A stretch of DNA of 33,429 nt from Deltaproteobacteria bacterium (lineage in GTDB: Bacteria; Desulfobacterota; Syntrophia; Syntrophales; Smithellaceae). Below, one piece after another: positions 7,290-31,554 of the stretch (its first letter is position 1; each line of letters begins with the position of its first letter). The position numbers were made by a program, and so were the translations under genes. The notes beneath the pieces were generated by a model that saw nothing but the letters and a program-made list of their open reading frames with translations, did no database searches and was not told where the DNA came from. The stretch spans positions 1-33,429 of the forward strand of contig JAPLJP010000146.1 in the NCBI GenBank assembly GCA_026388535.1. Reading direction: 5' to 3'.

Positions 7290-8413
7290 AAATTCAATAT
7301 ATTCTCCAAAACATACTCGATTGATTGCTTTAAGTTCATACCTTCAATAGGGGTTTCAATTAAATTATCCTGATAGCCGTTTTCCTGATACCATCCCCTT
7401 TTTTTCTTTGCTCTTTCGGCATAATCAAAATCATTCATCATGCCATTATGCTCCCAATAGAATTCTCTGCGATTATGCTTGAAAGTGAAGTCAGGCAACT
7501 TAAATGATTTGTTGTCTTTCGCTATTAAAGGCTTTTCATAGAAAAAACCAATTTCATGCTTTGCCAAAGCTTCTGAAATTAATTTTTCACCTTCCGACCG
7601 CACAAATAAATCAGGCAATACTTCATAAATCAGATTTTCCGGTTTATATTTCTCAAAGTCTTTCGAAGGGATGCCTTTTGAAGTATTGAATAAAGATGAG
7701 TTCCTTTTAACGATTTCTGATTTGCCTAACCACAACCGACTTTTAAGAATATTTAAATTATTTTGAATTAAAACTATTTGAATACATGTTGATCTTGTTA
7801 ATGCTGTATATAACATTTCACGGTTTAGAAAATCTGAGTCCTCTTCAGGAACAATCATTATGGTAATATCAAACTGACTGCCCTGTGCTTTGTGGACAGA
7901 TGTAGCATAACCCAACTCTAGCATTTCATTTGCTTGCTTTTTGGTAAGGTAATAGGAATATCGTTCATAGTCCTTTGGAAATTTTATCATAAATTTTTTC
8001 TTACTATTAGGAAGAAAATAACCAAGTGTTCCGTTAGGTATATATGTATCGTCAGAGCTGACAATCTTATTTATAGTATGGTCCCAGGCATGATAAGTAT
8101 AATTTCTTATCTGCAAAACTTTATCGTTGAAAACAAATCCATATTTGTGCCATTTATCAACTACGTCTTTTCCTCTAAGGGCTTTTTGAATTTCAAGGTT
8201 GATATTGTCAACTCCTGTTGGCGTGTGTCTGTAAGGTGCAATTAAATTGATTGCCTCAATTTTTCTGTCCTTGTTAAAAGGAATCCCATGAACATCATTG
8301 TATCTTTCGCCCAATTCTTTTTTACTTTTATTTCTTTCTAATCGTGAAACAGCATAGTCCAAAATTTCAGGAATCTTTTTTTGCAAATCATCTTCATCTT
8401 TCCAATTCATCAA
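7286..8413 (-). pseudogene. Broken RecD-like SF1 helicase-nuclease, C-terminal part
   Basis: 375 codons, openable only from a TTG at 8413, in a different frame from the preceding ORF, with which it overlaps by 20 nt. It carries the second helicase half: APYRHTPTGVDNIN (about 59-72), the VFNDKV segment near 94-99, motif V YATSVHKAQGSQFD (169-182) and motif VI LYTALTRS (201-208). A C-terminal nuclease-like domain of PDDEXK type follows (SEGEKLISEAL near 272, PDFTF at 306-310, FYWEHNGM at 317-324). Motif III (GDPxQLPP) is in neither ORF, so together they cannot make a complete SF1 motor. With the frame change, this points to an out-of-frame internal deletion rather than a simple sequencing slip. 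The nuclease part could still be translated through coupling, which is speculative. Confidence 0.72.
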
Positions 8414-10442: not shown

Positions 10443-10443
10443 T

Positions 10444-11661
10444 TCAATTCCTCTTTCTTGCTGCTTTTATACGTTCAAGTAATTTCGATGCCTGTTCGTC
10501 GTTGGGGTCTTGGGGGACGAGCTTGCCTTCAAAGGCTTTCTTTAAAATGCTTTGCCGCAGGGATTCGGACTGTTTAAGACTTTGCTCAATGCTCTCTTCG
10601 ATTTTGTCGCAGACCGAAAGACGGGATTCGATTTCAGCGACGATGGCTTGTTGTTCACTAATAGTTTTTGGAACAGCTATCTCAATTGGGTATATTTTGC
10701 CTTGCGAAATTACAGGTTGTGCCGTTGAGCTAGAATACTTGTTAAGGTTTAAGCTAATGATTAAATGATACAAATAATTTATGTCGAATACTAATTCATC
10801 AAAAGTAACAACAAATGCATTATCTGTTACCCAGCTATGAGGTTTTGTTATATGAGCATTCCCACACTGCGCACCAACGCGCCCAATAATAAGTTTTTCT
10901 TTTTTAAATAAATATTCGTTATGTTTGCCTGTTATACCATTTCCACCATATACTAAATATTTACCATTCTCATTTCTCCCAGCTTTAGTAAGTCCACTTC
11001 CGCTGCTTATAGAAATTACTTCACCTAATGTTGTTTTGCGCCAATTCTCAAATTTATTTATCAGCTTGCCTTCAAAGGCCCATTTCAGGACGGCTTGACG
11101 ATAGACTTTGAGTTGTTGCTGCGCGGTTTTGAGGCTTTCAATACCTTTATCCAAACTGCTGAACAGCTCTTCTATCTTAGCAACAATGCGCTGCTGCTCG
11201 GAAAGAGGTGGGAGGGCAATTGTTGATTCTTCAAATTTATTTTTGGTTATATGCGCAAGACCTGCTGTGCCATGAGCTTTACTGACAAATTCTTTAACTT
11301 TGTGATTCAGGGCATATAAATAGTACTGTTTTGTGATTTCTTTCTCATCAACTACAATTCGGAAAATATGCTGATTTAATACAGCGCGACCACCCAACCA
11401 AATATGTGCGCCAAATGACGTATCTGGTGTTCCTGACCAAGCAAAAAGTAAATCTCCTTTATTGACATAGTATTTGTCATCTACTGCAAAGTTGCAATAA
11501 TTGAACTCAGATTTTTCACGATTGAGATTCTGAATCCTAATAATCGGCAATCCATCTTTACTCCACTCAGTTGGTTTAAAAGCTTTACCATTAACATAAT
11601 TTGCAATCTCACCCAGCTTAACTGTTTTCCATCCGTATGGGATTCCCTTATTTTCACTCAT
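10444..11661 (-). CDS. hsdS: Type I restriction-modification system, specificity subunit
   Basis: 405 residues with the classic duplicated layout. Target-recognition domain 1 (about 8-165, beginning IPYGWKTVKLGEIANYVNGKA) and central helix LSEQQRIVAKIEELFSSLDKGI are followed by WAFEGKL. Domain 2 (about 205-345, beginning WRKTTLGEVISISSG) and the second helix SEQQAIVAEIESRLSVCDKIEE end at KKAFEGKLVPQDPNDE. HsdS sets the bipartite DNA target: each domain reads one half-site and the helices fix the spacing. The AFEGKL-containing helix ends are repeated, as usual. The start is one nucleotide after the hsdR stop (TAGGATG), and its TGA is one nucleotide before the helicase ATG, so the operon is tightly coupled. 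Recognition sequence cannot be read from this. Confidence 0.96.
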   Translation of the reverse strand: MSENKGIPYGWKTVKLGEIANYVNGKAFKPTEWSKDGLPIIRIQNLNREKSEFNYCNFAVDDKYYVNKGDLLFAWSGTPDTSFGAHIWLGGRAVLNQHIFRIVVDEKEITKQYYLYALNHKVKEFVSKAHGTAGLAHITKNKFEESTIALPPLSEQQRIVAKIEELFSSLDKGIESLKTAQQQLKVYRQAVLKWAFEGKLINKFENWRKTTLGEVISISSGSGLTKAGRNENGKYLVYGGNGITGKHNEYLFKKEKLIIGRVGAQCGNAHITKPHSWVTDNAFVVTFDELVFDINYLYHLIISLNLNKYSSSTAQPVISQGKIYPIEIAVPKTISEQQAIVAEIESRLSVCDKIEESIEQSLKQSESLRQSILKKAFEGKLVPQDPNDEQASKLLERIKAARKRN

Positions 11662-11662
11662 C

Positions 11663-14434: not shown

Positions 14435-14548
14435 AGTAAGTACATTATCGCGCATCCGTAAAACTATGAAATAAGTGGCAACGCAATTTTTTATCGTAGT
14501 ATATTTTTATTGTAAATTGTTGATCATCTTACAACTTCTTGAATATAT

Positions 14549-14570: not shown

Positions 14571-15172
14571 AATCCCACGACGCTACGCTCCTGGGATACC
14601 ACGGATATCTCTTCGATATCCTCCGCCTGTGGCGGGATAATTCAACTAACAAATATTACTGCACTATGCTTGTAATATTTGAGTTTCATTAGTTCCCAAT
14701 CCCGATAAATCGTGGATTGGATAGTTCGACTAACTCTTCAAACTTCGCTATACTCGTTTTCAGAGAGTCTCTCTACGACTTACGTTTCGAGCTTCATCCC
14801 GACTTGTCAGGATTCGTTCTTAACGAGTCTCACTAAAGTTTTAGGTTTTAAGTGTTAAGGAATTAAGGACGAAGAGTGAAGAACTGGATTCCCGCCTGCG
14901 TAACCTAAATACCCTGAAGGGCACTATAGGGTCATCTGCGACGGGAATGACAAAAAATGAAAGATTGCCACGTCGCGCGAGGTGCTCCTCGCAATGACAA
15001 TTTTGAGATGTCCTCACTATCCCACGGCACTGCGTGCCTGGGATAGCTCCACTAACGTTTCGAGTCCCCATTCACTCCGTTCAGGGGATAGTTCGTCTAA
15101 TGCTTCAATCTTCGCTACGCTCGATTTTAGCAAGTCTCACTACTGCACTTCGTTTGCTCTCAGCTTGGCTCA
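14571..15172. repeat. Large modular palindromic repeat block between hsdR and the flavoenzyme gene
   Basis: No gene. In order: a GGATATC/GATATCC palindrome (about 14603-14620), CAAATATTAC/GTAATATTTG arms (14650-14681), CCAATCCCGATAAATCGTGGATTGG, an ACTCTTCAAACTTCG...TTTTCAGAGAGT unit, ATCCCGACTTGTCAGGAT, and a TTCCCGCCTGCG...CTGCGACGGGAA hairpin interrupted by a CCCTGAAGGGCACTATAGGGT insert (about 14888-14946). Then come a CTATCCC...GGGATAG hairpin (15018-15045) and a CCCCATTCACTCCGTTCAGGGG hairpin. It closes with TGAGCCAAGCTGA in reverse orientation (15160-15172). Confidence 0.78.
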
Positions 15173-17557: not shown

Positions 17558-18265
17558 TTAACGCGCACTTTCTAAAGCCAGCTTCAGCAAAAAGATCGTA
17601 TCCGTCCGCAGTTTCGTCTTTGCCCATTTTTTACGCTCCTCAGTTAGCAGATCCCCCAAGCCGCTCAGAATGGTGCGATCGCTCATTTTTTCCAGCCGCG
17701 CAATACACTTCCGCAATAGTTGCCCATAAGCCATGCCGGCACGCTTCTCGACGATTTCTTTATTAATCGGCCAGCGGTTGTTGGCGAAAAACCAGACATC
17801 GTAAATGTCACGGTTGGTTTTGCCGATTCTTTCGTACATGGCCATCAGTTTATGCGCGTACATATCCTCTCGCACCATTACCTGCATGGATACGCCCAGG
17901 TATGTTTGAATTTCGTATTTTGAACCGAAAGCGCGGCGGTTGATCTCTATTTTGATGTTTGTCGCTTTTTCATCATAAGAAAGTACCACCAGAAGGCTGA
18001 ACTTTTTTTTGTGCGCGTCTCTGACCGTTCCATAATTCTTTGCAATCATGACAATTTTTTCAAATACATCATTCTCCTTGGACGCATCGAGTAAATCAAA
18101 ATCCAGATCAACGGAAAACCGGTTGAGTCCATAAAACATGAAGGCCGCGGTACCGCCTTTAAATCCCAGAAGCGGCGCAAGGGTTGTATCGGTATAAACA
18201 TCCTTGAGCATCTGAAATAATATATTTTTATGAACCGGCGCGTTTATTTTCTCGTTTATTGTCAT
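17558..18265 (-). CDS. AbiEii-type nucleotidyltransferase toxin
   Basis: 235 residues. The nucleotidyltransferase core is clear: LLGFKGGTAAFMFYGLNRFS followed by VDLDFDLL (about 33-59), with the GG-T motif and the catalytic DxD (D53, D55). KIEINRR is the third acidic strand, and MVREDMYAHKLMAMYER...NRDIYDVWFF is the family's conserved helical block. AbiEii/AbiGii proteins are toxins of type IV toxin-antitoxin and phage-abortive-infection systems; related MenT toxins add nucleotides to tRNA ends. The partner antitoxin lies directly upstream (18393-18980). The stop codon is seven bases from the direct repeat copy 1, so the gene's native terminator appears to have been lost at the junction. Catalytic residues look intact. 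Confidence 0.9.
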   Translation of the reverse strand: MTINEKINAPVHKNILFQMLKDVYTDTTLAPLLGFKGGTAAFMFYGLNRFSVDLDFDLLDASKENDVFEKIVMIAKNYGTVRDAHKKKFSLLVVLSYDEKATNIKIEINRRAFGSKYEIQTYLGVSMQVMVREDMYAHKLMAMYERIGKTNRDIYDVWFFANNRWPINKEIVEKRAGMAYGQLLRKCIARLEKMSDRTILSGLGDLLTEERKKWAKTKLRTDTIFLLKLALESAR

Positions 18266-18358
18266 AAATTTTATTCGTCAGTTTAACTTTTATATCACCC
18301 TGAATGTGTCTGACAAAGAACTGAAGAATGAAAACGGTAAATTTCACCCTCCCTCAAT

Positions 18359-18377
18359 CCCTCCCCTCAAGGGAGGG
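18359..18377. repeat. CCCTCCC/GGGAGGG hairpin between antitoxin and toxin genes
   Basis: 7-bp arms in the 127-nt gap between abiEi-like and abiEii-like genes. A related CCCTCC...GGAGGG hairpin is at 2464-2484. It could affect the ratio of the two products through RNA structure, but it may simply be a REP-type element. Confidence 0.5.
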
Positions 18378-18392
18378 AAGAAATATTAACAT

Positions 18393-18980
18393 TTATTGCC
18401 CGGACTTGAAACCCTTGAAATACTCATGTGCTTTTTTGGTCATCCTTTTGTTATCATACAAGGGCAGCATCTCAAATACCTTGTCCCAATTAAGCAAGGC
18501 AAGATTGTCAAAATGATAATCCGTGTTGAGATAAAGCGTATCTAAAAATGCCCGTTCCATCGTTGCAATGGCAATACCGTCTTTATTCAAAACGCCGGCA
18601 GAATCGGTCAACAGAGTATTTTTTATCTTTCGGTATTGATACACCTGACCATCGACAACTATTTCGCGCGCCAGATACGACGCGATAAATATCTGCCCGT
18701 AATACTGAAAGTTGATACCCGCGCGCGTCAGCACGGTTTCAAAACTGACGTATGCCGGTGTGTAGATTCTGCAGGCCAGTTCTGTTTTGTCATAATTCTT
18801 ATCTTTGGCATAGATGCCGCGCCGTATTCTGTGTAGCTGGCCAGTGCTTACATAGTAATTAATTCCGGCGATAACAGCTTTTTGATCAGTATTACGCCAC
18901 ATCAGAGAAATGTCTTTGAACGTAAAGACGGTTCTACCGGATCGCAGTATTGCGGATATGGGCTTTTTAACGTATTCCAT
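18393..18980 (-). CDS. AbiEi-type antitoxin/transcriptional regulator
   Basis: 195 residues. The N-terminal part (about 1-65) is a winged-helix-like region: VFTFKDISLMWRNTDQKAVIAGINYYVSTGQLHRIRRGIYA contains the wing motif 'L-RI-RGIY' typical of AbiEi antitoxins. The C-terminal part (SFETVLTRAGI, then TMERAFLDTLYLNTDYHFDNL) is the antitoxin domain. AbiEi proteins neutralise the AbiEii toxin and repress their own operon by binding inverted repeats upstream. The gene order, antitoxin first and same strand, is canonical, though the usual short overlap with the toxin gene is replaced by a 127-nt gap. No strong ribosome-binding site is seen before the ATG. Confidence 0.88.
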   Translation of the reverse strand: MEYVKKPISAILRSGRTVFTFKDISLMWRNTDQKAVIAGINYYVSTGQLHRIRRGIYAKDKNYDKTELACRIYTPAYVSFETVLTRAGINFQYYGQIFIASYLAREIVVDGQVYQYRKIKNTLLTDSAGVLNKDGIAIATMERAFLDTLYLNTDYHFDNLALLNWDKVFEMLPLYDNKRMTKKAHEYFKGFKSGQ

Positions 18981-21385: not shown

Positions 21386-22150
21386 GCAATTTTCCCCCTT
21401 GAATTATTTATTCTAGCAAAAGCTTAATTCTTACTATGATAATTTCTTTAGAATGCTACCCCACGGCGCTTCGCGCCTGGGACAATTTAACTTACGCTTC
21501 AAACTTCGCAAAGCTCGTTTTCAGCGAGTTTCATTGGGAAACAATAAACTGGGCACAGAATCCGGTTATTTTCGCTTGCGTTCCTTTTTCGTTTGTTTTC
21601 TTGCCCTTCGCCCGCAAAACTAAAACTAATGTTATCGAATTTGTCAATGATTTTTTACCAATTGGTTAAATATTTTTTTCGCAACTGAGGGACTGGATTC
21701 CCGCCTGCGAGACTGTGTCGTAATTCCTTTTCATGTCATTTCGAAGCGAAGCGAGAAATCTTGTTTTCAATAAATTCAGCTCTTTAAGATTCCTCACCCC
21801 GACACATCGGGATTCGGAATGACATTTTTTCTATTGTGACACAGTCTCTGCGCGGGAATGACACAGTGAAGTATCCCACTTCGCTTCGGGGATAGCTTAA
21901 ATGTGTTCACTATCCTACGTCACTTCGTTCCTAGGATACCACGGATATCTACGATATCCTCCGCCTGCGGCGGGATAATTCAACTTACAAATATTACTGC
22001 GCGAAGTTTGTAATATTTGAGTTTCATTAGTTCGTCCAACAAGTTTCAGTGCGCTTTCACTATCCCGCTTCGCTTCGCTTCGGGGATAGTTCGACTAACT
22101 CTTCAAACTTCGTCCCGACTCGTCGGGACTCGTTTTCAGAGAGTCTCACT
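21386..22150. repeat. Repeat-rich spacer between the ligase gene and the divergent glycosyltransferase operon
   Basis: No gene. From left: a CTACCCC...CTGGGAC hairpin and TTCAAACTTCG...CGTTTTCAGCGAGT unit (about 21459-21535), a unique stretch with a candidate ligase promoter, and a nested palindrome (about 21692-21864). Then come ATCCCACTTCGCTTCGGGGAT, GATATC-type dyads (about 21945-21960), CAAATATTAC/GTAATATTTG arms (21988-22019), and a TTTCAGTGCGC unit. It ends in a CTATCCCGC...CGGGGATAG hairpin and an ACTCTTCAAACTTCG...TTTTCAGAGAGT unit ending near 22147. Confidence 0.72.
21619..21647 (-). promoter_or_regulatory. Candidate promoter of the acyl-CoA ligase gene
   Basis: On the - strand TTGACA (21647-21642), a 17-nt spacer and TTTAGT (21624-21619, 4 of 6 consensus bases). 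The resulting leader of about 225 nt would include a palindromic repeat unit. Moderate at best. Confidence 0.35.
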
Positions 22151-22156
22151 ATTTCA

Positions 22157-22185
22157 TTGACACACATAATCACTCTTCCTATACT
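22157..22185 (+). promoter_or_regulatory. Near-consensus sigma-70 promoter of the PqqD/glycosyltransferase operon
   Basis: TTGACA (22157-22162), exactly 17 nt, then TATACT (22180-22185): 11 of 12 consensus bases with ideal spacing. It sits between the last palindromic repeat (ending about 22147) and the first gene (ATG at 22247), with a predicted start of transcription near 22192 and a leader of about 55 nt. This is the strongest promoter seen in the window and faces the + strand operon. Confidence 0.75.
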
Positions 22186-22246
22186 CTTATCCAATATAAT
22201 TATAATCCGACACAATTATGAAGCCGAATGTCGAGAGATTAAATCT

Positions 22247-22924
22247 ATGGAAAATAATATTAGCGTCATTCTGGTGGTAAAAAATGGAGAATCTTACCTG
22301 GCCCAGGCTATTGAGTCGGTACTTGCCCAGGCTATCTCGCCCCTTGAAATCCTGCTCATCGATGGTAACTCACAGGATGCAACGCCGGAAATTGCAAGCC
22401 GATATCCAAATGTCACATATATTCTTCAGTCTGGATGTGGCCTTGCCAATGCGCGCAACTGTGGTCTTTCCCTGGCACGTGGTGAATGGGTGTTTTTTTT
22501 AGACTGCGATGATTACTGGTCACCGGATAAATTGTCTCTCCAGGTGGAGTTTCACCGTTCCAACCCCCTTTATGAATTTTCGGTGGGCCGGGTAAAGTTT
22601 TTTCTGGAATCCGGTACTATGCTGAGGCCCGGATTTCGCGCAAATTTCTTTGAAATCGGGGCAGTTGGATACACGCCCGGTACTTTGTTCGCCCGCCGAA
22701 GTGCTTTTGAGCGTGTTGGATTTTTTGATGAATCTTTAGCTATAGCCTGCGATGCCGACTGGTTTGCCCGCCTGAAAGACAGTGATGAAAAAGTTGGAAT
22801 TCTTGAACAGGTTCTTTTACATAAACGTATTCACTCAAATAATTTATCAGGGAAAGTGCAACAGAACCGGCATGAGTTGATGATTGTATTAAATCGTTCA
22901 CTGAAGCGTAAACGCCAAAAATAG
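22247..22924 (+). CDS. Family 2 glycosyltransferase (first of operon)
   Basis: 225 residues from the ATG at 22247. The open frame extends 66 codons upstream, but that stretch passes through the promoter and palindromic repeat, so the shorter form is chosen; GAGAG precedes it weakly. GT-A fold features: ISVILVVKNGESYLAQAIESVL (4-26), LLIDGNSQDAT (37-46), the acceptor block GLANARNCGLSLARGEWVFF and the metal/UDP-binding DCDD (86-89) in place of the common DADD. A late ACDADWFARL and HKRIHSNNLSG also fit the family. It should transfer a sugar from a nucleotide donor in the cytoplasm. It resembles the second GT2 of the operon (26541-27251) in size and motif order, so the two may have arisen by duplication. 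Donor and acceptor are unknown. Confidence 0.9.
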   Translation: MENNISVILVVKNGESYLAQAIESVLAQAISPLEILLIDGNSQDATPEIASRYPNVTYILQSGCGLANARNCGLSLARGEWVFFLDCDDYWSPDKLSLQVEFHRSNPLYEFSVGRVKFFLESGTMLRPGFRANFFEIGAVGYTPGTLFARRSAFERVGFFDESLAIACDADWFARLKDSDEKVGILEQVLLHKRIHSNNLSGKVQQNRHELMIVLNRSLKRKRQK

Positions 22925-23021
22925 CAGAGACATAACGTTTTGCGGCCAAATACCCCTTGACAGGCAAAACCGCATTTCTTATAGTCCAGTCTCGAAAAAG
23001 CAATATCTTCGGGAGTGCAGT

Positions 23022-23462
23022 ATGTTTGAAATATCACCACAAGTAATTCATGAAGTAATAGATGGCGAAACCATGCTTGTCAGGCTGGACAGCGGTAACT
23101 ATTACAATATGAATGCGACAGGCGGCCAGATATGGTCATTTATAGAAAAAGGTGCTTCAGAAAGTCAGATAGTTTCCGATTTTACCGCACTTTACGGGCT
23201 TGATAAAAATATTGTTGGAGAACAAATAAGTATATTCATTAAGCAACTGATAGCAGAAGAGCTTATTTCCCCCAATGGCAATTCGCCGGACGCGAAGATT
23301 GCTTTTAAGTCTGAGAGCCTTCAACAACTGACAAATTTATTTGAACCGCCGCTTATCAATAAATATTCCGATATGCAGGAACTGCTTATTCTCGACCCGA
23401 TACATGATGTAAGTGATGCGGGCTGGCCTAATCCCAAATCAGAGAACGATAATAATGGATAG
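23022..23462 (+). CDS. PqqD-domain protein with a conserved-looking C-terminal tail
   Basis: 146 residues; GGGAG lies 7 nt before the ATG. Residues 1-85 have the PqqD pattern: ISPQVIHEVIDGETMLVRLDSGNYYNMNATGGQIWSFIEKG, then ASESQIVSDFTALYG and a C-terminal helix IFIKQLIAEELI. The 'Y-x-MN-x-T-G-x-IW' core is diagnostic. PqqD proteins are winged-helix RiPP-recognition elements that hold a leader peptide for a radical SAM or other modifying enzyme. After a linker, residues 113-138 carry KYSDMQELLILDPIHDV and GWPNPK, an ordered-looking motif rather than a random tail. It could bind a partner or be a substrate itself, which is inference. The kinase start overlaps the end of this gene by 8 nt, so the two are coupled. 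Confidence 0.88.
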   Translation: MFEISPQVIHEVIDGETMLVRLDSGNYYNMNATGGQIWSFIEKGASESQIVSDFTALYGLDKNIVGEQISIFIKQLIAEELISPNGNSPDAKIAFKSESLQQLTNLFEPPLINKYSDMQELLILDPIHDVSDAGWPNPKSENDNNG

Positions 23463-24591
23463 CACAAAAACCGGACGCGCACTGCCCCAACCGGATGTTA
23501 CAATCCAAAGCGCTGTGCTTCTCGACAATTATTTCAATTCCGTCCGGAAAATCTTTGCGCACGCGCTCGAATCGGGCGGCAAACCAGTCAAAAAGTACTT
23601 CACCCTGTGCGACAGCACTATAGAACTGATATTTCCCGATGACAAACTGCTTCCATACATCACTCCGGCACTGGAACATCTCTCTATAACCTCTGCTGAA
23701 AGCCCTGCGCTTACAATACGCATATGGGACGATGTCACAACCAATACAATGATGCCTACGCCACCCTGGTTAGGATATGCTGTGCAGGCAAAGGGCGGTA
23801 ATATTGAAGGTGTCTATACCAATCGCGGTGACATAAGGGGATTCGGTAACAGCAGAATCAAGACCGCCTTTAATTGGTCGGCCAACGCGCTGAGCATGTA
23901 TGACTCTAAGGAAAAGATTGGGTATTACTGGACAAAGGACGCGCGGGAGTTACCCGCCTACGAAACCAGCGCTCCCGTAAGAACGATACTCAACTGGTGG
24001 GTTCAGGAACGTAATTTTCATTTCGCGCATGGGGCAGCGGTGGGAACAAAGCGCGGCGGTGTTCTTATTGCGGGCAAGGGAGGATCAGGCAAATCAACGG
24101 CAGCGCTGGCATCTCTTAACTCCGGGCTGCTTTATGTAAGCGACGATTATTGTGTTGTGTCCGCCCAACCCGTGCCTGCGGCATACAGCGTATTCAGTTC
24201 CGCAAAGGTGGATCCCGGCAACATATTCAGAGTTGAACATATCGCGCCCACGCGAGTTAAAACCGGAAACAAGCACGATGACAAGGAAGTTTTTTTTCTG
24301 TATCCGCGATTTTCAGAACAAATAACTTCATGGTTTCCGCTTCGCGCCATATTATTGCCTCGAATAACCGGCAAGCCTGATTCAGCATTAATCCCCGCAA
24401 CACCTGCGGACTGCATAAAGGCTCTCACATTAAGCACTATGTGCCAGTTTCCCGGCGCCGGCAAAAAAGCGGTGGATATATTTGTGCGACTAGCCAAAAC
24501 ACTGCCAGGTTATTATCTTGATTTCGGAACTGATGTGGCGCAGGTGCCAAAGCTGATAAGCGATCTGCTGGAAAAAAGAGATATGGTGTAA
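23455..24591 (+). CDS. HprK-like P-loop serine kinase homologue
   Basis: 378 residues from the ATG at 23455, which overlaps the PqqD stop (ATGGATAG); an in-frame ATG at 23413 would overlap 50 nt and is less likely. The N-terminal 180 residues have no firm family. FHFAHGAAVGTKRGG (188-202) leads into Walker A AGKGGSGKSTAAL (206-218), then LLYVSDDYCVV (225-235), which matches the strand-plus-DDY pattern of HPr kinase-like proteins. The arrangement with PqqD and a nucleotidyltransferase is that of HprK-related kinases found in exopolysaccharide and RiPP (lasso-peptide-like) clusters. The true substrate is unknown: phosphorylation of a small carrier peptide or of a PqqD-bound peptide is inferred from relatives. 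It directly precedes the GT4 gene (3-nt gap). Confidence 0.87.
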   Translation: MDSTKTGRALPQPDVTIQSAVLLDNYFNSVRKIFAHALESGGKPVKKYFTLCDSTIELIFPDDKLLPYITPALEHLSITSAESPALTIRIWDDVTTNTMMPTPPWLGYAVQAKGGNIEGVYTNRGDIRGFGNSRIKTAFNWSANALSMYDSKEKIGYYWTKDARELPAYETSAPVRTILNWWVQERNFHFAHGAAVGTKRGGVLIAGKGGSGKSTAALASLNSGLLYVSDDYCVVSAQPVPAAYSVFSSAKVDPGNIFRVEHIAPTRVKTGNKHDDKEVFFLYPRFSEQITSWFPLRAILLPRITGKPDSALIPATPADCIKALTLSTMCQFPGAGKKAVDIFVRLAKTLPGYYLDFGTDVAQVPKLISDLLEKRDMV

Positions 24592-24594
24592 GCC

Positions 24595-25779
24595 ATGAAA
24601 ATAATCATAATCAGCCCCTTCCCTCCTTATCCGCCTGACTCGGGTGGACGTATCCGTCAGTGGGAGCTGATAAAATGTTTAAGCAGAAAGCACGATCTGA
24701 CTCTCGCCTTTTTTATCAACAAAGGGGATGAAAAAATACTGGACGGCGCGTTTGAAGGTATCTGCTCGCGTGTGGCTATGATTACACACACCGGAGACAC
24801 AACGCCGACAGGCCCGCACGCTTTGCCCTGGCCGATGCGCGCCTACGGAGTGGAACCAATGCGGAATCTGCTCACAGAACTTTCTTCCAATAAATACGAT
24901 CTGCTGATTACGGAATTTATATTTATGGCTCAGCACCGCGCCATATTTAATATTCCGGCGGTTCTTCACGAGCACAACATAGAATCTTCCATATTCAAAC
25001 AATATTCGGAGATTCCTGATGTACACAGGACCGAAATCTTCGGAATTACAAAAGATGCTCATTTCTGGAAGGCGTCTTGTATGCTTATGCGTCAATATGA
25101 AAACAAGACATGGCCCGCGTTCGATCTGCGTATAACGGTGAGCAAGCTCGATCAGGAAGAAATGAACTCACGCTGTCCTGACGGTAAGACAATTGTGGCG
25201 GAAAACGGCGTGGACACAAACGAATTTAAACTACTGCCTGTCAACAGGTCAAAAAAGATTCTGTTTGTCGGGACCATGAATTATTTTCCCAATATTGACG
25301 GAGCATTATTTATGGCACAATCAATCATGCCTCATGTCTGGCGCATCGATCCCGATATCAGGCTCTGTATCGTCGGTAGAAATATGCCAAAACACATCCG
25401 CGATCTCGGCAATGATCAACGGATAGAAATAATAATGGACGCCCCGGATATTAAGGTTGTTGCGGCCCAGTGTTGCGTTTCGGTTGTGCCTCTGAGACTC
25501 GGCGGCGGCACGCGGATAAAAATACTCGAAGCATTCGGGTTGGGACTGCCGGTGGTTTCTACCGCAAAGGGCTGCGAGGGATTGGCGGTTGAAGACGGCA
25601 GGCATCTTCTGATCAGGGACAATCCTAAAGAATTTGCTGCTGCCGTGGCAATGGCTGTGAATGATAATGAGCTTCCCGAAACACTTCGTAAAAACGGACG
25701 TAAGCTTGTCGAGGAGAGATATGATTGGCAGAATATATTCGGATCTGCTGAAGAAAAAATAATGAAACTGGTAAAATAG
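24595..25779 (+). CDS. Family 4 glycosyltransferase (GT-B fold)
   Basis: 394 residues. The N-terminal Rossmann domain opens with IIISPFPPYPPDSGGRIRQWEL, the sugar-transferase start with the Gly-rich acceptor loop. The C-terminal donor domain has KKILFVGTMNYFPNIDG (220-235), VVPLRLGGGTRIKILEAFGLGLPVVSTAKGCEGL (298-330) and LVEERYDW near the end. The G-G-x-R/K...E-x-G...GLP pattern is that of GT4 retaining transferases, related to the PEP-CTERM/EPS-associated sugar transferases. It should add a sugar from a nucleotide donor to a lipid- or glycan-linked acceptor in the cytoplasm. It starts 3 nt after the kinase stop, so it is translated from the same mRNA. Confidence 0.93.
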   Translation: MKIIIISPFPPYPPDSGGRIRQWELIKCLSRKHDLTLAFFINKGDEKILDGAFEGICSRVAMITHTGDTTPTGPHALPWPMRAYGVEPMRNLLTELSSNKYDLLITEFIFMAQHRAIFNIPAVLHEHNIESSIFKQYSEIPDVHRTEIFGITKDAHFWKASCMLMRQYENKTWPAFDLRITVSKLDQEEMNSRCPDGKTIVAENGVDTNEFKLLPVNRSKKILFVGTMNYFPNIDGALFMAQSIMPHVWRIDPDIRLCIVGRNMPKHIRDLGNDQRIEIIMDAPDIKVVAAQCCVSVVPLRLGGGTRIKILEAFGLGLPVVSTAKGCEGLAVEDGRHLLIRDNPKEFAAAVAMAVNDNELPETLRKNGRKLVEERYDWQNIFGSAEEKIMKLVK

Positions 25780-25823
25780 ATGATAAAATTTAATAATAAT
25801 TTATCCGTTTCGGGTTATTTATT

Positions 25824-26507
25824 ATGATAAGCGACTATTTTGACAAGATATATATAATCAACATGCGGCGATCATTAAAACGCAGGATGGCGGCTCTCTT
25901 CCATATACAGAAGTTGAAGCTGAATAATGCTTCACTGGTTGAGGCTGTTGATGGACGTTCTCTTGATCTCGAAGAAATGAAGGTTGAGGGAAGTCTCCAA
26001 TGGGACGATTGGAAACAAAGAGACCTGACGCAGGGAGAAGTAGGTTGTTATATTAGTCACGTAAAAGCATGGAATATGATGGTTGATCAGCGTTTAGGGA
26101 ACGTTCTGATCTGCGAAGACGATATAGTGTGGCGGCCTGACGCCAACGAAATTGCGGATAGATTCATGTCTGAAGTTCCTGATGACTGGGACATTATTCA
26201 TTTCCACAGTTATGTCGGAATTGGTTCCGGCAGGCATAACGACTCAGACAGAAAGAGAATCAGCGAGCATGTATGGAGGGGCTTCGATGAAGGAGGAGGG
26301 ACGCTCTGCTACGCCATAAATATTCGAGCCGCCCGCTTTCTCCTCGGAAAGGCCTTTCCGATATGCTATGCCGTTGATGGCTTAACCAATAAACTGACCA
26401 GTCCGGAAAGAAACACGGAATACCACGGTTATGTCTGCCATCCGTTTCTTTGCGGATTTTCGAAGATAGAGTCGGAAATAGATAAGATATTCAAAAGAGT
26501 GAATTGA
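25824..26507 (+). CDS. Family 25 glycosyltransferase
   Basis: 227 residues, typical of LPS/capsule GT25 enzymes. IYIINMRRSLKRRMAAL (9-25) is the opening strand and helix, LVEAVDGRSL (38-47) the conserved loop, LTQGEVGCYISHVKAWNMMV (68-87) the signature, and LICEDDIVW (95-103) the DxD-like metal site. GGGTLCYAINIRAARFLL follows. The family commonly transfers galactose onto lipooligosaccharide acceptors and also onto collagen lysines in animals, so a protein or peptide acceptor is possible. The 44-nt gap to the previous gene and the same strand keep it in the operon. No clear ribosome-binding site is seen before the ATG. Confidence 0.9.
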   Translation: MISDYFDKIYIINMRRSLKRRMAALFHIQKLKLNNASLVEAVDGRSLDLEEMKVEGSLQWDDWKQRDLTQGEVGCYISHVKAWNMMVDQRLGNVLICEDDIVWRPDANEIADRFMSEVPDDWDIIHFHSYVGIGSGRHNDSDRKRISEHVWRGFDEGGGTLCYAINIRAARFLLGKAFPICYAVDGLTNKLTSPERNTEYHGYVCHPFLCGFSKIESEIDKIFKRVN

Positions 26508-26540
26508 TAGTTCTGTAATTATAACGAAGGACAATAACCA

Positions 26541-27251
26541 GTGACTGAAAACGCATTAATCAGTGTCATCATACCGGTATATAATGGAGAGCGTTATATA
26601 GCCAAAGCTATTAAAAGCGTGCTTGCGCAAGAATACAAAAATATCGAAATAATAGCGGTTAATGACGGCTCGACGGACGGTACTGAAGAGGTTCTGCGTT
26701 CTTATGCGAATGTGCAGTATTTATATCAACCCAGAAAAGGGGCTTCAGCGGCGCGAAACAGCGGGATCAAATGTTCTTCCGGTGATTTTATCGCGTTTCT
26801 TGATGCTGATGATTTATGGACAAAAGACAAGCTTAAGATACAGAATTCATTGTTCATGGATGACCATGATCTGGACATGGTTTTTGGTCATGTAGAACAA
26901 TTCTATAGTCCGGAACTCGAGGATTCTCTGAAAGGCAGGATACATCTGGTTGCAGGCAGCATGCCCGGATACATTCCGGGGGCAATGCTTATAAAGAGAA
27001 TCTCCTTTTTAAAAGTAGGATTCTTTGATGAAGGATTCAGGATCGGCGAATTCATCGACTGGTATATGAGGGCTGTGGATCACGGACTTAAAAGTTTTAT
27101 TGCCAGGGAAGTGGTATTAAAGAGACGAATCCACGATGCGAATGCCGGCATAAAGGAAAGGGATTATCGCAAGGATTATCTGCGTGTTCTGAAGGCATCT
27201 CTTGACAGACGAAGAAAGACAAAAAAGAAAGTAGAGGCTGTGATTGAATGA
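26541..27251 (+). CDS. Family 2 glycosyltransferase (second of operon)
   Basis: 236 residues from a GTG; GAAGGA 10 nt upstream supports it. Motifs of GT2: ISVIIPVYNGERYIAKAIKSVL (7-28), IIAVNDGSTDGTEEVLR (37-53), GASAARNSGI, and FLDADDLW (86-93) with the DADD metal site. Later GFFDEGF and WYMRAVDHGLKS match the acceptor half. It runs in parallel with the first GT2 (22247-22924), with the same length class and closing HDANAGIK/HSNNLSGK-type loop. This indicates a paralogous pair using related acceptors. The final TGA overlaps the ATG of the next gene (ATGA), giving translational coupling to the nucleotidyltransferase. Confidence 0.92.
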   Translation: MTENALISVIIPVYNGERYIAKAIKSVLAQEYKNIEIIAVNDGSTDGTEEVLRSYANVQYLYQPRKGASAARNSGIKCSSGDFIAFLDADDLWTKDKLKIQNSLFMDDHDLDMVFGHVEQFYSPELEDSLKGRIHLVAGSMPGYIPGAMLIKRISFLKVGFFDEGFRIGEFIDWYMRAVDHGLKSFIAREVVLKRRIHDANAGIKERDYRKDYLRVLKASLDRRRKTKKKVEAVIE

Positions 27252-28402
27252 GGTCCAAGGAAGAAGGATTTTTCTGGCCGACACGGGAACAGGAATTACT
27301 GCTTAAGGCGACATTGCTCAAAGGAGAGCAAGCAATCGTCGCCTGGAAGAGCTGGGCGGCTGCGATTAATTTCGATCAACTGGATACAGGGTCCCAGCGT
27401 CTTTTGCCCCTGCTTTACCGTAACCTCGTAAATAATAATGTTCAGCATCCGGCAATAAATGTCTACAAAGGTTTTTGCCGCATGACCTGGTATAAGAACA
27501 GTCTTATCCGCCATCGCATAACCAGTGTCCTGCGTCTCCTTGATGCTCACAACATACCAGCGTTACTGCTCAAAGGCGCGGCTCTTGTTCCACTGTACTA
27601 CAAGGATTGGGCTCTTCGTCCCATGAACGACTTTGACCTGTATGTATCGAAGAAAGACGCGTTTAAAGCATTTAATCTTTTATGTCAGTCCGGCTGGAAA
27701 CCAGTCGAATCAATGATTGATGAATTGGATTTGCTTAACAGACATTCCGGCACGCTGATTGACGCTTCCGGTATTGAATTCGACCTGCACTGGCAAGTTA
27801 TGCACCAATCCGGCCAGGATAATGACATCAGTTTTATAAAAAGCACGGAAAAGATGGATTTCGGCGGCACCAGTGTTTCGGTTTTATCTCATACCGATCA
27901 GCTCTTTCACGTGCTTATCCATGGAGCAAGATGGAATGAAGTCGCGCCACTGCGCTGGGTTCCGGATTCAATGATGATTTTAAAAGCGGCGGGCCCGCTT
28001 ATCGACTGGAAAAGACTGGTAAACAATGGCCGCGCAATGTGCCTGATAGTTCCTTTGATAAAAACCCTCTTATATCTTCACGAAGTATTCGCGGCACCTA
28101 TTCCGGAGACGGTTATATATAACCTGAAACATTTAAAACCTTCATTTACCGAGCGGCTGGAATTTCTTACAAACAGCAAACCCCGGAGTATTCTTCGCGA
28201 TACTTCTTATCTCTGGTTCACGCATGTCAGATCATCCGGTGCTCAAAGCAGGGTCGCGCTTGTGCTTGGTATTCCGTCTTTCCTGAGGAGATTCTGGAAA
28301 GTTCCTTCTGAAAATAATTTGGCGGTTTTTTTGATACGCAGGCTCGCTAAAAGAATTCAACAGGCAAAAGAAAAACGTTTAATTACGCAAAATAATCTGT
28401 AG
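27248..28402 (+). CDS. PF14907-type nucleotidyltransferase family protein
   Basis: 384 residues, starting inside the stop of the preceding GT2 gene (ATGA). The core is IPALLLKGAALVPLYYKD (103-120) followed by RPMNDFDLYVSKKDAFKAFNLL (124-145), which has the Lys-Gly motif and the catalytic DxD (D128, D130) of the uncharacterised nucleotidyltransferase family. Then come IEFDLHWQVMHQS (the third acidic strand), DQLFHVLIHGARWNE and a helical C-terminus ending in a basic stretch. Members of this family appear with PqqD- and HprK-like proteins in HPr-rel-A, lasso-peptide and exopolysaccharide loci; nucleotidyl transfer to a peptide or glycan precursor is the general expectation, but no activity is known here. 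All catalytic residues seem kept. Confidence 0.88.
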   Translation: MRSKEEGFFWPTREQELLLKATLLKGEQAIVAWKSWAAAINFDQLDTGSQRLLPLLYRNLVNNNVQHPAINVYKGFCRMTWYKNSLIRHRITSVLRLLDAHNIPALLLKGAALVPLYYKDWALRPMNDFDLYVSKKDAFKAFNLLCQSGWKPVESMIDELDLLNRHSGTLIDASGIEFDLHWQVMHQSGQDNDISFIKSTEKMDFGGTSVSVLSHTDQLFHVLIHGARWNEVAPLRWVPDSMMILKAAGPLIDWKRLVNNGRAMCLIVPLIKTLLYLHEVFAAPIPETVIYNLKHLKPSFTERLEFLTNSKPRSILRDTSYLWFTHVRSSGAQSRVALVLGIPSFLRRFWKVPSENNLAVFLIRRLAKRIQQAKEKRLITQNNL

Positions 28403-28424
28403 ACAAAGTCGAAATCATAGACAT

Positions 28425-28430
28425 GGGAGG
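28425..28430 (+). promoter_or_regulatory. Ribosome-binding site that points to a non-AUG start of the radical SAM gene
   Basis: GGGAGG lies 9 nt before an in-frame ATA (28440) and 15 nt before a CTG (28446). Both are in the radical SAM frame, while the first in-frame ATG comes only at 28512. An overlapping six-codon ORF (ATG at 28423, MGGLLP, stop 28441-28443) also uses this region. Confidence 0.45.
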
Positions 28431-28511
28431 ATTATTACCATAAACCTGTCAAAAATAATTTCGGGAAACTGGTATAATGAAAATATCTATTTTAAATTTC
28501 GTTTCCATAAG

Positions 28512-30245
28512 ATGCCCTTCTGGAAACGCAATCTTGCCCGATTATTTTTCCTGCCGGTCGCTTTATGGCTAAGAATTAACAAATCCATCAGAAACAGGAT
28601 GGAAATTCCGAATGTCGAAATGTTCATCATGAACCCCTGCAATCCGCAATGTATTGACTGCAAAGATTTGAATTCTTTGTACCCAAATAATGTTGATCTT
28701 GATGCAGAGCGGCTTATTCGGGATGCTGATGATTTCCTGGGCAATGTGAATCGCGTCCATCGCTTTATCATCACCGGCGGAGAGACTTTGCTTTATCGCG
28801 AATTACATAAATTATTAAGCTATCTGATCAGACAAGAAAAGATTGATCTGATAAATATTTTAACAACCGGCGCCATAATTCCTGAATCAGATATCCTGGA
28901 GTTGCTGAAGCATCGCAAAGTGCTGGTGACAATCAGCAGTTTTCCTGAGAAAGCGTCACCCAACAAACCTCACTTTATTGCCATTCTGGAAGATAATCAT
29001 ATTAATTACATAGTGAAAGATACCTGGCGGGATTTAGGCAGTTTCAATCCTGTCGCCAACAGCAGTGCGGAAGATCTAAAAAATCGTTTTGCCCAATGTA
29101 TATATAAAAACCACCATAATCTGAATAATGGTGAGTATCATCTTTGTCCACGTTCAGTTCATGGCAAACAATTGGGGCAGTTTTCACCGGATGATTCGGA
29201 CAGCGTTACATTTAGAGACAGGAAAGATTCTCGTTTATTTAAAAAGGAACTTCGAAATCTACTCCGGAAAGAATATCTTACGGCCTGCAGCAAATGCAGA
29301 GGCAGCCATCGGGAAACGATTTTAGACGATCTCTTAAATAAACTATTGGGAAGCTGGTATAGTGAAAACATCTACTTTAAATACCGCATCCATAATATGT
29401 CCTCGAGAAAGCGCGATTTAGCGCGGCTATTTTTCCTGCCTATTGCTTTATGGATAAAACTTATCAACTCCATACAACATAGATTAGAATTGCCGCATGT
29501 GGAAATGCCCATTACCACCCGCTGTAATCTACATTGTAGAGACTGCGGAAACTTGATTCCTTTTTATAAGCATCCTGTTGATTTTGACGTAGAGCAGCTT
29601 ATCCAGGATATTGATGACTTCCTGTATAATGTGGATCGAGTCCATCGCTTTTTTATCATGGGCGGCGAGACATTCCTTTATCGAGAATTGCATAAATTAG
29701 TAAGTTACCTGATTAGGCAAGACAAAATTGATCTGATAAATCTTTTTACAAATGGTTCCATAATTCCGGAATCAGATATCATGCAATTGCTTAAGCATCG
29801 TAAAATCCTGGTGTCGATCAGCAGTTTTCCAGAGGAGGTGTCACCCAACAAACCCTGCTTCATTGCGACCATGGAAGCAAATCATATTAATTACAGGGTA
29901 GAAGATAATTTGTGGCTGGATCTGGGCGGTTTCAATCCTGCCGTGGATAGCAGTGCGGAAGCTGTTAAACAGCGTTATACCAACTGCTGCATTAAAAGCA
30001 GTCATAATATAAGCAATGGTGAGTATCATTTGTGTCCACGGTCAGTTCATGGCGAGCAGTTGGGGCAGTTTTCGCCGGATGACTCGGATAGGGTTATATT
30101 TCGGGGCAGGAAAAATCCTCAGGCATTTAGAAAGGAGTTGCGGACACTTTTCCATAAAGAGTATATTACTGCGTGCAGCAAATGCACAGGCACTACAGAA
30201 GCAAATGTTATTCCGGGTATTCAGCCTGATAGAGGTAATTTATAA
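28512..30245 (+). CDS. Tandem-duplicated radical SAM protein
   Basis: 577 residues from the ATG at 28512, made of two copies of one module with a period of 885 nt (295 codons). Copy 1 has the radical SAM motif CX3CX2C at C43, C47 and C50 (CNPQCIDC), GGET at 89-92 and extra cysteines 196, 212, 259 and 262. Copy 2 has C338, C342 and C345 (CNLHCRDC), GGET at 384-387 and C492/493, 508, 555 and 558. Both copies contain CPRSVHG and a TACSKC end, suggesting one auxiliary iron-sulfur cluster each. Each radical SAM half would cleave SAM to a 5'-deoxyadenosyl radical. Copy 2 begins with GSWYSENIYFK, and the matching GNWYNENIYFK of copy 1 lies in frame upstream of the ATG (from 28464). True translation therefore probably starts near 28440 from a non-AUG codon. 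It is coupled to PqqD in the operon, so peptide modification is the best guess. The substrate is unknown. Confidence 0.83.
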   Translation: MPFWKRNLARLFFLPVALWLRINKSIRNRMEIPNVEMFIMNPCNPQCIDCKDLNSLYPNNVDLDAERLIRDADDFLGNVNRVHRFIITGGETLLYRELHKLLSYLIRQEKIDLINILTTGAIIPESDILELLKHRKVLVTISSFPEKASPNKPHFIAILEDNHINYIVKDTWRDLGSFNPVANSSAEDLKNRFAQCIYKNHHNLNNGEYHLCPRSVHGKQLGQFSPDDSDSVTFRDRKDSRLFKKELRNLLRKEYLTACSKCRGSHRETILDDLLNKLLGSWYSENIYFKYRIHNMSSRKRDLARLFFLPIALWIKLINSIQHRLELPHVEMPITTRCNLHCRDCGNLIPFYKHPVDFDVEQLIQDIDDFLYNVDRVHRFFIMGGETFLYRELHKLVSYLIRQDKIDLINLFTNGSIIPESDIMQLLKHRKILVSISSFPEEVSPNKPCFIATMEANHINYRVEDNLWLDLGGFNPAVDSSAEAVKQRYTNCCIKSSHNISNGEYHLCPRSVHGEQLGQFSPDDSDRVIFRGRKNPQAFRKELRTLFHKEYITACSKCTGTTEANVIPGIQPDRGNL

Positions 30246-30269
30246 AACATCATAAATAAGGAAATACTT

Positions 30270-31094
30270 ATGCATAATTTAGTAATATTCACAGCATCTT
30301 ACATTGTAGATTTGGACCGCTTGGAAATATTGAAATCATCCGTTGACAAGTTCAACGCCGATAAAATTCCTTTTTATATTGTTGTTCCGCAAAAAGATTT
30401 GGAAATTATCAAAAATAAAATTACGACAGGTAATGAGTCTTATGAACTAAAGTTTATAACCGATGAAGAAGTGTTGCATTCTCAAGGCGAACAACCAGAT
30501 GGATGGAAAAAGCAACAAGTAAAAAAATTAGCTTTTGCGGAATTGGGAATATGTAATTTTTATACAATCATAGATTCCGATGTCTATTTTATACAAGATT
30601 TTCATGTATCGGATTTTATGAGAGATGAAAACACCCCATATTTGTCAATTAATGAGGTACAACAATCGCAGGATAAATCTTTTGCGAAAAACTATTTTAA
30701 CAGAACAGGTAAAAATTATAATTTTGTATATCATGGACAAGTATTCTCTAAATTTGTTCTTGAAGATATGAAAAAGAATGTATTGGAAAAAAACGGCATG
30801 TGCTGGAATGACTTGATTAACCTCTCCCCTTGGGAATTTCTGTGGTATGGTGAATATTATTTAAAATGTAAAATTCATGAATTGTTACCGACAACTCAAC
30901 TGGTTAAATCTTTTTGGATACAATTACATTACATATTGGAAAGAAACCGTGGTTACACGGAAGAAGATTTTATCAATCAAGGTTATATCGCGATTTTAAT
31001 GCAAAACAGATGGGTTAAAGATAAAGTATATAAACCGGTTAAGTGGGCATTTCTGATAAAACTTATTCGAAAAGCCGTGCGTCGTTTTTTATGA
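30270..31094 (+). CDS. DUF6492-like glycosyltransferase, last gene of the operon
   Basis: 274 residues; AAGGAA 8 nt before the ATG, 24 nt after the radical SAM stop. NLVIFTASYIVDLDRLEILKSS and FYIVVPQKDLEII give a GT-A-like start. GWKKQQVKKLAFAEL and FYTIIDSDVYFIQDF (97-111, DSD at 102-104) match the metal-binding part of DUF6492-type proteins. NLSPWEFLWYGEYYLKCK follows, and the end is basic (LIRKAVRRFL). The family is poorly characterised and glycosyl transfer is deduced from its fold. The gene is visibly richer in A+T than the upstream genes (many AAA/TTT/ATT codons), which suggests separate acquisition. No terminator was found after it. Confidence 0.72.
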   Translation: MHNLVIFTASYIVDLDRLEILKSSVDKFNADKIPFYIVVPQKDLEIIKNKITTGNESYELKFITDEEVLHSQGEQPDGWKKQQVKKLAFAELGICNFYTIIDSDVYFIQDFHVSDFMRDENTPYLSINEVQQSQDKSFAKNYFNRTGKNYNFVYHGQVFSKFVLEDMKKNVLEKNGMCWNDLINLSPWEFLWYGEYYLKCKIHELLPTTQLVKSFWIQLHYILERNRGYTEEDFINQGYIAILMQNRWVKDKVYKPVKWAFLIKLIRKAVRRFL

Positions 31095-31554
31095 TCAGTT
31101 ACGATTGGACGTCCTTTTTATTTTCTCAATTCACTTAACATTTATTTTCTATATCCTCCACCTGCGACTACAATGACAAAGTTACAAATCCCTCGTCGTC
31201 CCTGCCAATCACGACAAGTCGTGAATTGGCGGGATAATTCAACTAACAAATATTACTGCACTACGTTTGTAATATTTGAGTTTCATTACTACGCGCCTGG
31301 TATAATTCGTCCAGCAAGCTTCAGTGCACTCTGTTTCTGAAGCTTGGGTCTCATTATCAGCTTGGCTCATCATCCCGCTCCGCTGCGCTTCGGGGATAGA
31401 TTTAAGGTGGTCACTATCCTACGTCGGGGATATAAAATGTGCTCATTATCCCACTCCGCTACGCTTCGGGGATAGATTTAAGGTGGTCACTATCCTACGT
31501 CGCTTCGCTCCTAGGATAATTCGCCTTACGCTTCGAGCTGTACTTCGTTTGCTC
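31095..31554. repeat. Repeat-rich spacer between the operon and the oxidase gene
   Basis: No gene. Holds CCAATCACGACAAGTCGTGAATTGG, CAAATATTAC/GTAATATTTG arms (31247-31278), an AAGCTTCAGTGCACT...CTGAAGCTT unit (about 31316-31346), and TGAGCCAAGCTGA in reverse (31357-31369). Two CATCCCGCTCCGC...CGGGGATAG hairpins, each followed by the same ATTTAAGGTGGTCACTATCC segment, come next. It ends where a second reverse TGAGCCAAGCTGA (31555-31567) begins inside the end of the oxidase gene. Confidence 0.75.

Follow-up and report, generated by a model that had tools for sequence, protein, structure and literature searches.

The operon described here comprises nine genes on the + strand (22247-31094) of a 33,429-nucleotide window, the whole stretch of Smithellaceae (Syntrophales) DNA that was analysed, and one of its products is a PqqD protein of 146 amino acids (aa) that almost certainly unites the recognition element (RRE) of a ribosomally synthesized and post-translationally modified peptide (RiPP) system and a leader-like peptide in one chain. 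The gene (23022..23462, + strand; PF05402, expectation value (E) 1e-11) encodes the RRE domain at approximately residues 1-84, followed by a linker and a tail at residues 107-146. This tail, the final 40 residues of the protein, FEPPLINKYSDMQELLILDPIHDVSDAGWPNPKSENDNNG (23340..23459, + strand), carries a leader-like FxxPxI motif and then a DPIHDVxxxGWP end, and is conserved in relatives. The PqqD protein, an HprK-like kinase, a GT2 glycosyltransferase (GT) and the nucleotidyltransferase-like enzyme NTP_transf_5 form a genuine conserved unit and not a coincidence. As far as it can be read from sequence, namely from the tail with its leader register, from its occurrence together with a PqqD domain, from the recurring neighbours and from the absence of a separate precursor close by, the system is a variant of the phosphorylated lasso peptide and LPP systems with a one-piece RRE-leader protein.

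Normally an RRE is recognised either as a protein of its own or within an enzyme, the precursor having a separate gene, and genome mining hence seeks a small precursor open reading frame (ORF). A family that bears its leader on the RRE would therefore be scored as having no precursor, as it was in a preliminary description of this DNA, whose statement that the operon gaps hold no evident precursor ORF is correct for a separate ORF but overlooked the tail encoded at the end of the PqqD gene. The parts are of known kinds, and no publication was found that has them in this arrangement; literature searches with motif strings and RRE-fusion terms, with most subscription papers and all supplements outside their reach, gave no description of the tail, and the accessible parts of RRE-Finder and its 2025 update list fusions of RREs to glycosyltransferases and other enzymes, none to a leader. 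Nor does the tail-bearing set have a family name in the libraries searched. It would provide a ready-made RRE-leader complex in a single chain and a clean system for the role of the PF14907 enzyme, which was left open in LPP and pseudomycoidin work, and it may link RiPP logic to surface glycans. Borosins, in which the precursor is fused to its modifying enzyme, are similar in that the substrate peptide and the protein handling it share one chain, and differ in that this protein is a methyltransferase instead of an RRE.

The C-terminal tail and its RRE domain

The DNA pattern DP(I/V/M)H(D/E)xxxxGWP, run over the public genome collection, matched at least 116 loci, and all counts out of 116 given below refer to those listed, each of which reads as a tail. 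The tail consensus is [FYW]xxPxLxxYxDMQxLLLLDP(I/V)H(D/E)VxxxGWP, and the search pattern itself partly accounts for the fact that its D, P, H, G, W and P never vary among the listed loci. Beyond the pattern, an aromatic residue at position -18 (108 of 116), Pro at -15 (101), Asp at -8 (113) and Met at -7 (97) are conserved as well, and the first motif residue is Phe in 64 and Tyr in 38. Tails are widely distributed: 80 of the listed loci, named as in their records, fall among Alpha-, Beta-, Gamma- and Deltaproteobacteria, Cyanobacteria, Bacteroidota, Chloroflexi, Acidobacteria, Verrucomicrobia, Planctomycetes, Gemmatimonadota, Actinobacteria, Chlamydiae, Clostridia and others, many being metagenome-assembled genomes (MAGs) whose individual assignments may be wrong. 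A hidden Markov model (HMM) of the PqqD domain matched 112 of the 116 tail ORFs, the remaining four being short (45-99 aa) and cut off. This model was grown from mostly the same proteins, and the independent figure is that of PF05402, with 111 matches among the 112 proteins of alignment A2. This alignment takes 106 of its members from the listed loci and leaves out nine of the 116 tail ORFs, either truncated or L115, and also L119, a second copy of L031. All Pfam and NCBIfam matches to the window protein at E<=0.01 end at or before residue 85.

The PqqD domain of this family belongs to the lasso clade, as a discrete lasso/LPP-type RRE. NF033536 (lasso_PqqD_Bac) matched 106 of the 112 members at E<=0.01, the window protein scoring 59 bits vs a cut-off of 80, and the best Foldseek matches of the PqqD protein were TbiB1-leader complexes, with template modelling (TM) scores of 0.87-0.92 by target length. 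The leader-binding groove, whose residues were mapped by eye from the structural alignment, appears to be retained at most positions, with 28, 30, 37, 54, 72, 76 and 81 hydrophobic in 104-112 of 111-112 sequences and position 58 in 89 of 105. According to the LPP study, lasso and LPP leaders bind the RRE via [Y/W]xxPx[L/V/I/F/A] and residues past the motif extend the RRE sheet in crystals, as those following WxxPxL do in PbaB1-PbaA (PMC13381572). The tail keeps the register of this YxxPxL leader motif, and an AlphaFold2 (AF2) model of the PqqD-tail protein based on 112 sequences shows the RRE with confidence, the linker weakly and a strand at residues 112-115 directly after FxxP, with a predicted local distance difference test score (pLDDT) of ~80. 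It is likely that the tail binds an RRE groove.

Two unusual arrangements were also seen. In a Terriglobia MAG, a single ORF (L115, 7069-8000) consists of a PqqD-tail and then an apparent second PqqD domain. The Chloroploca genome that holds tail locus L106 has a further tail-type sequence near its kinase, DPIHEVDAETGWP (L210, G440:C72), in which the spacer is longer.

Partner enzymes and separate precursors

Ten tail loci of the same genus or family share a constant set of PqqD, HprK-like kinase, GT2 and NTP_transf_5, with the PqqD of L042 cut short. The GT2 relative present in all ten is that of the second GT2 gene of the window (26541..27251, + strand; PF00535, E 5e-37), which overlaps that of NTP_transf_5 (27248..28402, + strand; PF14907, E 4e-37), an enzyme with an LKG...NDFD motif. 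HMMs run on six-frame translations of the 116 listed loci, many of which end at the edge of the fetched stretch, found the kinase at 92, GT2 at 90, NTP_transf_5 at 55, GT4 at 24 and relatives of the window's radical SAM protein at three. At the 36 loci with at least 5 kb downstream, the kinase is encoded in the same direction as the tail gene in 35, GT2 in 33 and all three core enzymes in 20, a frequent order being tail-PqqD, kinase, GT2, (GT2), NTP_transf_5. Natural kinase-GT2 fusions occur at five loci of the genus and in six proteins among the listed loci.

The tandem radical SAM protein, GT4, GT25 and DUF6492 look accessory. No GT25 or DUF6492 homologue was found at any of 80 loci tested, and among the ten loci of the genus or family only that of genome G009 (L031) comes close to the full window operon, lacking GT25 and DUF6492. 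Across 149 genomes, a full-length tandem radical SAM match was obtained only in the window genome and G009, with a single copy in G021 and distant matches in two more. A radical SAM protein of some kind lies near the cassette in at least five of the ten loci, related to that of the window at L031 and L044 and of other kinds at L032, L038 and L042, and PF04055 accounts for two of 44 further neighbour ORFs. The preliminary description had joined PqqD, kinase and nucleotidyltransferase to the radical SAM protein and several glycosyltransferases, and had proposed co-occurrence in relatives as a check. The first three do constitute a unit, together with GT2, related to the tailoring sets of phosphorylated lasso peptides and LPPs, and the four stay together in relatives. 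The tandem radical SAM is mostly absent there, and with window-type radical SAM at three and GT4 at 24 of the 116 loci and GT25 and DUF6492 at none of the 80, the wider grouping lacks support, except that some radical SAM often lies near the cassette within the genus or family. Overall, the earlier interpretation is partly supported.

The HprK-like kinase (23455..24591, + strand), whose gene overlaps that of PqqD by 8 nt, reaches 23 bits with the HPr kinase C-terminal domain of Pfam vs a cut-off of 33.3 (E 6e-5), and its identity is backed by catalytic residues and predicted fold. In alignment A3 (55 sequences, i.e., 53 of 78 possible kinase stretches, the window and L031), H192, K213 and D231 are invariant and D230 is kept in at least 90%, and the protein reads as an HprK-like kinase with the His-Lys-Asp-Asp set of phosphorylated RiPP systems. 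The AF2 model (mean pLDDT 92) has a PEPCK-type fold, and PEPCK chains, not HprK, stand in the best 50 Foldseek rows; HprK and PEPCK belong to one superfamily. PqqD together with an HprK-like kinase also recalls HPr-rel-A (TIGR04352/TIGR04353), the context named in the preliminary description, but against a TIGR04352 cut-off of 200 the window kinase reaches 22.5 bits, and 15 of the 112 PqqD proteins had a TIGR04353 match, that of the window not among them.

A search from the kinase side, in which the tail was not selected for, covered four groups of 297, 242, 246 and 158 genomes, and the cassette proved patchy, with kinase matches in 6, 7, 4 and 4 genomes, respectively, at the thresholds used and with the centre genomes included. 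The resulting sample of 19 kinases omits the four centre genomes' own matches and two weak ones (E ~1e-21), both adjoining a tail-less PqqD, and includes two from G003, a genome already in the genus/family set. With wider flanks, 14 of the 19 have a GWP tail nearby, His being absent in one of the 14 and the spacing wider in some, two have a variant tail and three have no PqqD in reach; two of these three start 0.4 kb and 1.5 kb from the contig start and the third is a weak match (E 6e-32). The variant tails (L227, 4130-4828; L228, 4190-4630) have the leader part YxxPxLNxYRDMAxxLALDPP with another end. A copy of the cassette lies on a mobilizable plasmid of the cyanobacterium Crinalium (L236, NC_019735.1, 5896-10295), with PqqD, NTP_transf_5, HPr kinase and GT genes as well as one for an FkbM methyltransferase, and the tail protein is labelled just "PqqD family protein" in that record. 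Novosphingobium sediminis (L121) is another carrier.

Four sister loci of the same genus or family (L040, G003:C15; L043, G001:C173; L045, G007:C9; L050, G029:C59) are two-piece LPP-like loci outside Bacillota. HprK-like kinase and NTP_transf_5 are present at all four, as at tail loci, and so is PqqD, which however is short (~90 aa) and tail-less. These loci further differ from tail loci in their 16 separate small precursor ORFs (1-7 each), in which YEKPELxxYEDLSD(V/I)T is followed by a core of 7-11 residues with Ser in each, and in a PF13471 peptidase at L040 and L043, the two that were checked; PF00733 had no match on the contigs of the sister loci. Leaders and tails have the same residue or class at positions 1, 4, 6, 9, 11, 12, 14 and 15 of 16, while position 16 is Thr in 16 of 16 leaders vs Leu/Ile in 107 of 116 listed tails.

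No separate precursor was found in the operon gaps, and leader-like ORFs numbered zero in the window. The ten genus/family tail loci gave one, which is not a leader by sequence, vs one for the reversed motif, and the 116 listed tail loci gave two vs one, the rest of the genomes lying outside this search. Small ORFs with a looser motif were not in excess either (91 on the same strand vs 124 for the reversed motif at the 116 loci), and the largest conserved small-ORF clusters at these loci lie on the opposite strand, where they probably match each other through being antisense to conserved genes. The search for a small conserved ORF nearby, suggested in the preliminary description, thus gave no excess of separate precursors at tail loci, and we attribute their absence to the leader-like tail that the PqqD protein itself bears.

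Processing enzymes were similarly sought. PF13471 had no match at the tail locus in 18 tail genomes, seven of which are without any at E<=0.001; one strong match, in G440, lies on a different contig from L106, and the 17 kb around it are free of PqqD-domain matches. The PF00733 cyclase had no match at the tail locus in 12 genomes searched (10 with tail loci), a weak match in G009 being 17 kb away on the same contig, and the window genome has PF13471 and PF00733 matches on other contigs only. As neither a lasso cyclase nor a B2 peptidase was found at the locus, classification as a lasso peptide locus was dropped. None of the nine window genes encodes a peptidase, nor is one among the best 25 of 43 families for the 44 neighbour ORFs, a search that did not include the SpI family.

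A possible role for the tail

The LPP system of Paenibacillus alginolyticus (lpp; Bacillota) resembles the tail system in its lasso-type RRE, HprK-like kinase, NTP transferase and YxxP leader, and, as described, in a glycan-rich setting without a macrolactam cyclase at the locus (PMC13381572). An ABC transporter is a further likeness at some tail loci (L034 and L036; the ATPase PF00005 in nine of the 44 neighbour ORFs), not in the window. In LPP, however, the precursors are encoded separately and the leader peptidase is of the SpI type, whereas here leader and RRE share one protein, and LPPs are called Bacillota-restricted in the same paper (PMC13381572), in contrast to a tail set found in many phyla. 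Among phosphorylated or glycosylated lasso peptides, pseudomycoidin (PsmK, PsmN), paeninodin (PadeK) and Bsf (BsfK, BsfB1, BsfN) are comparable in their His-Lys-Asp-Asp kinase, nucleotidyltransferase-like partner and PqqD-type RRE with YxxPxL or WxxPxL recognition, but the tail locus is without cyclase, B2 peptidase, separate precursor and conserved Ser acceptor, and GT2 genes belong to its core. PsmK is described as phosphorylating the C-terminal Ser of pseudomycoidin and PsmN as required for hexoses on it (PMC9266682), the LPP kinase as modifying Ser3 with no visible effect of LppN deletion in the test host (PMC13381572), and Ser3 phosphorylation in Bsf as requiring the RRE (PMC10368454).

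It has about an even chance of being true that the core is a one-piece cassette for RRE-guided phosphorylation and glycosylation, with the tail as its leader-like peptide and near-fixed end. The FxxPxL segment would sit in the groove of its own RRE domain, or that of a partner copy, and the DPIHDVxxxGWP end would thereby stay constantly exposed to the HprK-like kinase, NTP_transf_5 and GT2. If these enzymes work as PsmK/PsmN, LppK and BsfK do, they would add phosphate and then sugar, acting on what the RRE presents, which here would be its own tail; covalent modification of the tail itself falls just short of an even prospect. The tail probably remains uncut, because PF13471 is absent from the tested tail loci and Thr(-2) is replaced by Leu/Ile, and we hold the lack of cleavage to be fairly probable. 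The uncut, modified tail might then stay on the PqqD protein as a carrier or primer whose glycan is lengthened by accessory GTs (here GT4, GT25 and DUF6492), with the tandem radical SAM protein as an optional addition. In general terms, the likely function of the operon is to attach phosphate and sugars to a peptide, a protein or a surface sugar. The more far-reaching proposal of a self-presenting protein class in many phyla, whose uncleaved end is phosphorylated and glycosylated at a non-Ser residue by the HprK-like kinase and the GT2/NTP_transf_5 pair and, being made on the ribosome, primes or carries a surface glycan, is rather unlikely; His, Asp and Trp would be its best-conserved acceptor candidates.

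Several observations weigh against the proposed one-piece, RRE-guided cassette. No Ser or Thr position is conserved in it, the stretch between the D of DPxH and the stop being free of both in 26 of 115 tails and containing at least one in 89, and the known phospho-Ser3, counted from the aromatic residue, would fall on the P of DP (Bsf register, Y -17) or on D (LPP register, Y -16). The core of a product would normally vary, and this end is near-fixed across phyla. In the kinase-side sample, the two variant tails keep the leader part and have LDPPxP in place of DPIH..GWP, and three kinases of 19 lack a PqqD in reach. NTP_transf_5 is missing from the same strand at 16 of the 36 well-covered loci, at least four of which have an opposite-strand copy. 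On the RRE side, groove positions 33 and 60 are not kept (hydrophobic in 54 of 111 and 55 of 102), and a pairing partner for the AF2 strand at 112-115 was not seen. Finally, Bsf-type lasso leaders with Ile/Val(-2) are reported to be cleaved (PMC10368454), so that loss of Thr alone is no proof of an uncleaved tail.

A rival explanation, which we consider tenable but less probable, would make the tail an adaptor or pseudosubstrate that is never modified: a leader whose core, having lost its Ser, now serves for docking (DPIHDV..GWP) and anchors or activates the kinase, GT2 and NTP_transf_5; at the same modest probability, the enzymes would then act on another acceptor, e.g., a lipid-linked or surface glycan. 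A tail without conserved Ser/Thr, an end near-fixed across phyla with the kinase-side sample included, operons rich in GTs, and the location of LPP and paeninodin clusters in capsule loci (PMC13381572) all agree with it. The kinases of known relatives, however, are reported to act on an RRE-presented peptide (PMC9266682, PMC10368454, PMC13381572), and docking leaves the retention of the leader motif unexplained. Of the two readings, which we rank close to each other, the modified, uncleaved carrier is the one we prefer.

Other explanations fare worse. Genuine two-piece loci with separate precursors do exist in the genus or family, which gives some ground for an ordinary two-piece RiPP with its precursor elsewhere in the genome and the tail as a relic; we find this very unlikely, as leader-like ORFs are not in excess in the window or at tail loci, the extent of that search, which did not take in whole genomes, and a relic would not stay conserved across phyla. 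A radical SAM pathway to a RiPP or cofactor, akin to HPr-rel-A or SynChlorMet, suggested by the presence of PqqD, kinase and radical SAM in the window, by the radical SAM proteins near half or more of the genus/family tail loci and by weak matches of TIGR04248 to 54 of 112 PqqD proteins and of TIGR04249 to 10 of 55 kinases, is less probable again: relatives of the window's radical SAM are rare among the listed loci (other kinds could escape this count) and PF04055 is rare among neighbour ORFs, most PqqD members match lasso_PqqD_Bac, and the window scores far under the HPr-rel-A cut-off. That the locus is an exopolysaccharide or glycosyltransferase island in which PqqD and kinase genes occur by chance has a close to negligible probability. 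Five transferase-like genes and accessory genes that vary among relatives would fit such an island, but for the core it is refuted by the same-strand kinase and GT2 counts at the 36 well-covered loci; for GT4, GT25, DUF6492 and radical SAM, chance presence may well apply.

Layout and surroundings of the operon

The nine + strand genes are separated by gaps of 97, 3, 44, 33, 109 and 24 nt and by two overlaps (8 nt and 4 nt), which bears out the preliminary description as to their number, the spacing of at most about 110 nt and the existence of overlaps, though not the "several" it had counted. Its gene names agree with Pfam scores above the gathering cut-off for eight of the nine, the HprK-like kinase being the sub-threshold case discussed above. 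Upstream of PqqD lies the first GT2 gene (22247..22924, + strand; PF00535, E 4e-31), which has an 83% identical orthologue at the equivalent position in L031. The accessory genes, likewise on the + strand, are those of GT4 (24595..25779; PF13692, E 6e-21), GT25 (25824..26507; PF01755, E 1e-24), the radical SAM protein (28512..30245; PF04055 in two stretches) and the DUF6492 protein (30270..31094; PF20102, E 5e-17; DSD at 102), a possible GT-A-like transferase. Two tandem copies make up the radical SAM protein; they are 64.6% identical over 268 aa and have CxxxCxxC each.

In place of the one strong promoter described earlier, two equal promoter-like matches (11/12 positions each, + strand) were found, ahead of the first GT2 (22157..22185) and just ahead of PqqD (22957..22985), and such matches as a set are at chance level (25 vs 24.9 +/- 5.0 in shuffles). 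Rfam gave nothing at gathering score in the window. Copies of a 66-nt interspersed repeat lie at 21969-22034, 31228-31293 and 14631-14695, two of them bracketing the operon, and the idea of an island bracketed by its own repeats was dropped, since with at least 30 copies genome-wide the flanking ones carry no special meaning for the operon.

Beside the cassette in relatives, a protein of ~450 aa with the motif YNGYPLxxPDTxxYI recurs (L032, 5975-7306; L034, 6129-7444; L038, 2593-3987; L042, 14739-16121), with no Pfam match in the one copy scanned (L042). Elsewhere in the window, 5787-14455 resembles a type I restriction-modification operon in which two of the genes are separated by helicase-like ORFs, and 17558-18980 holds a pair resembling an AbiE-type toxin-antitoxin system.

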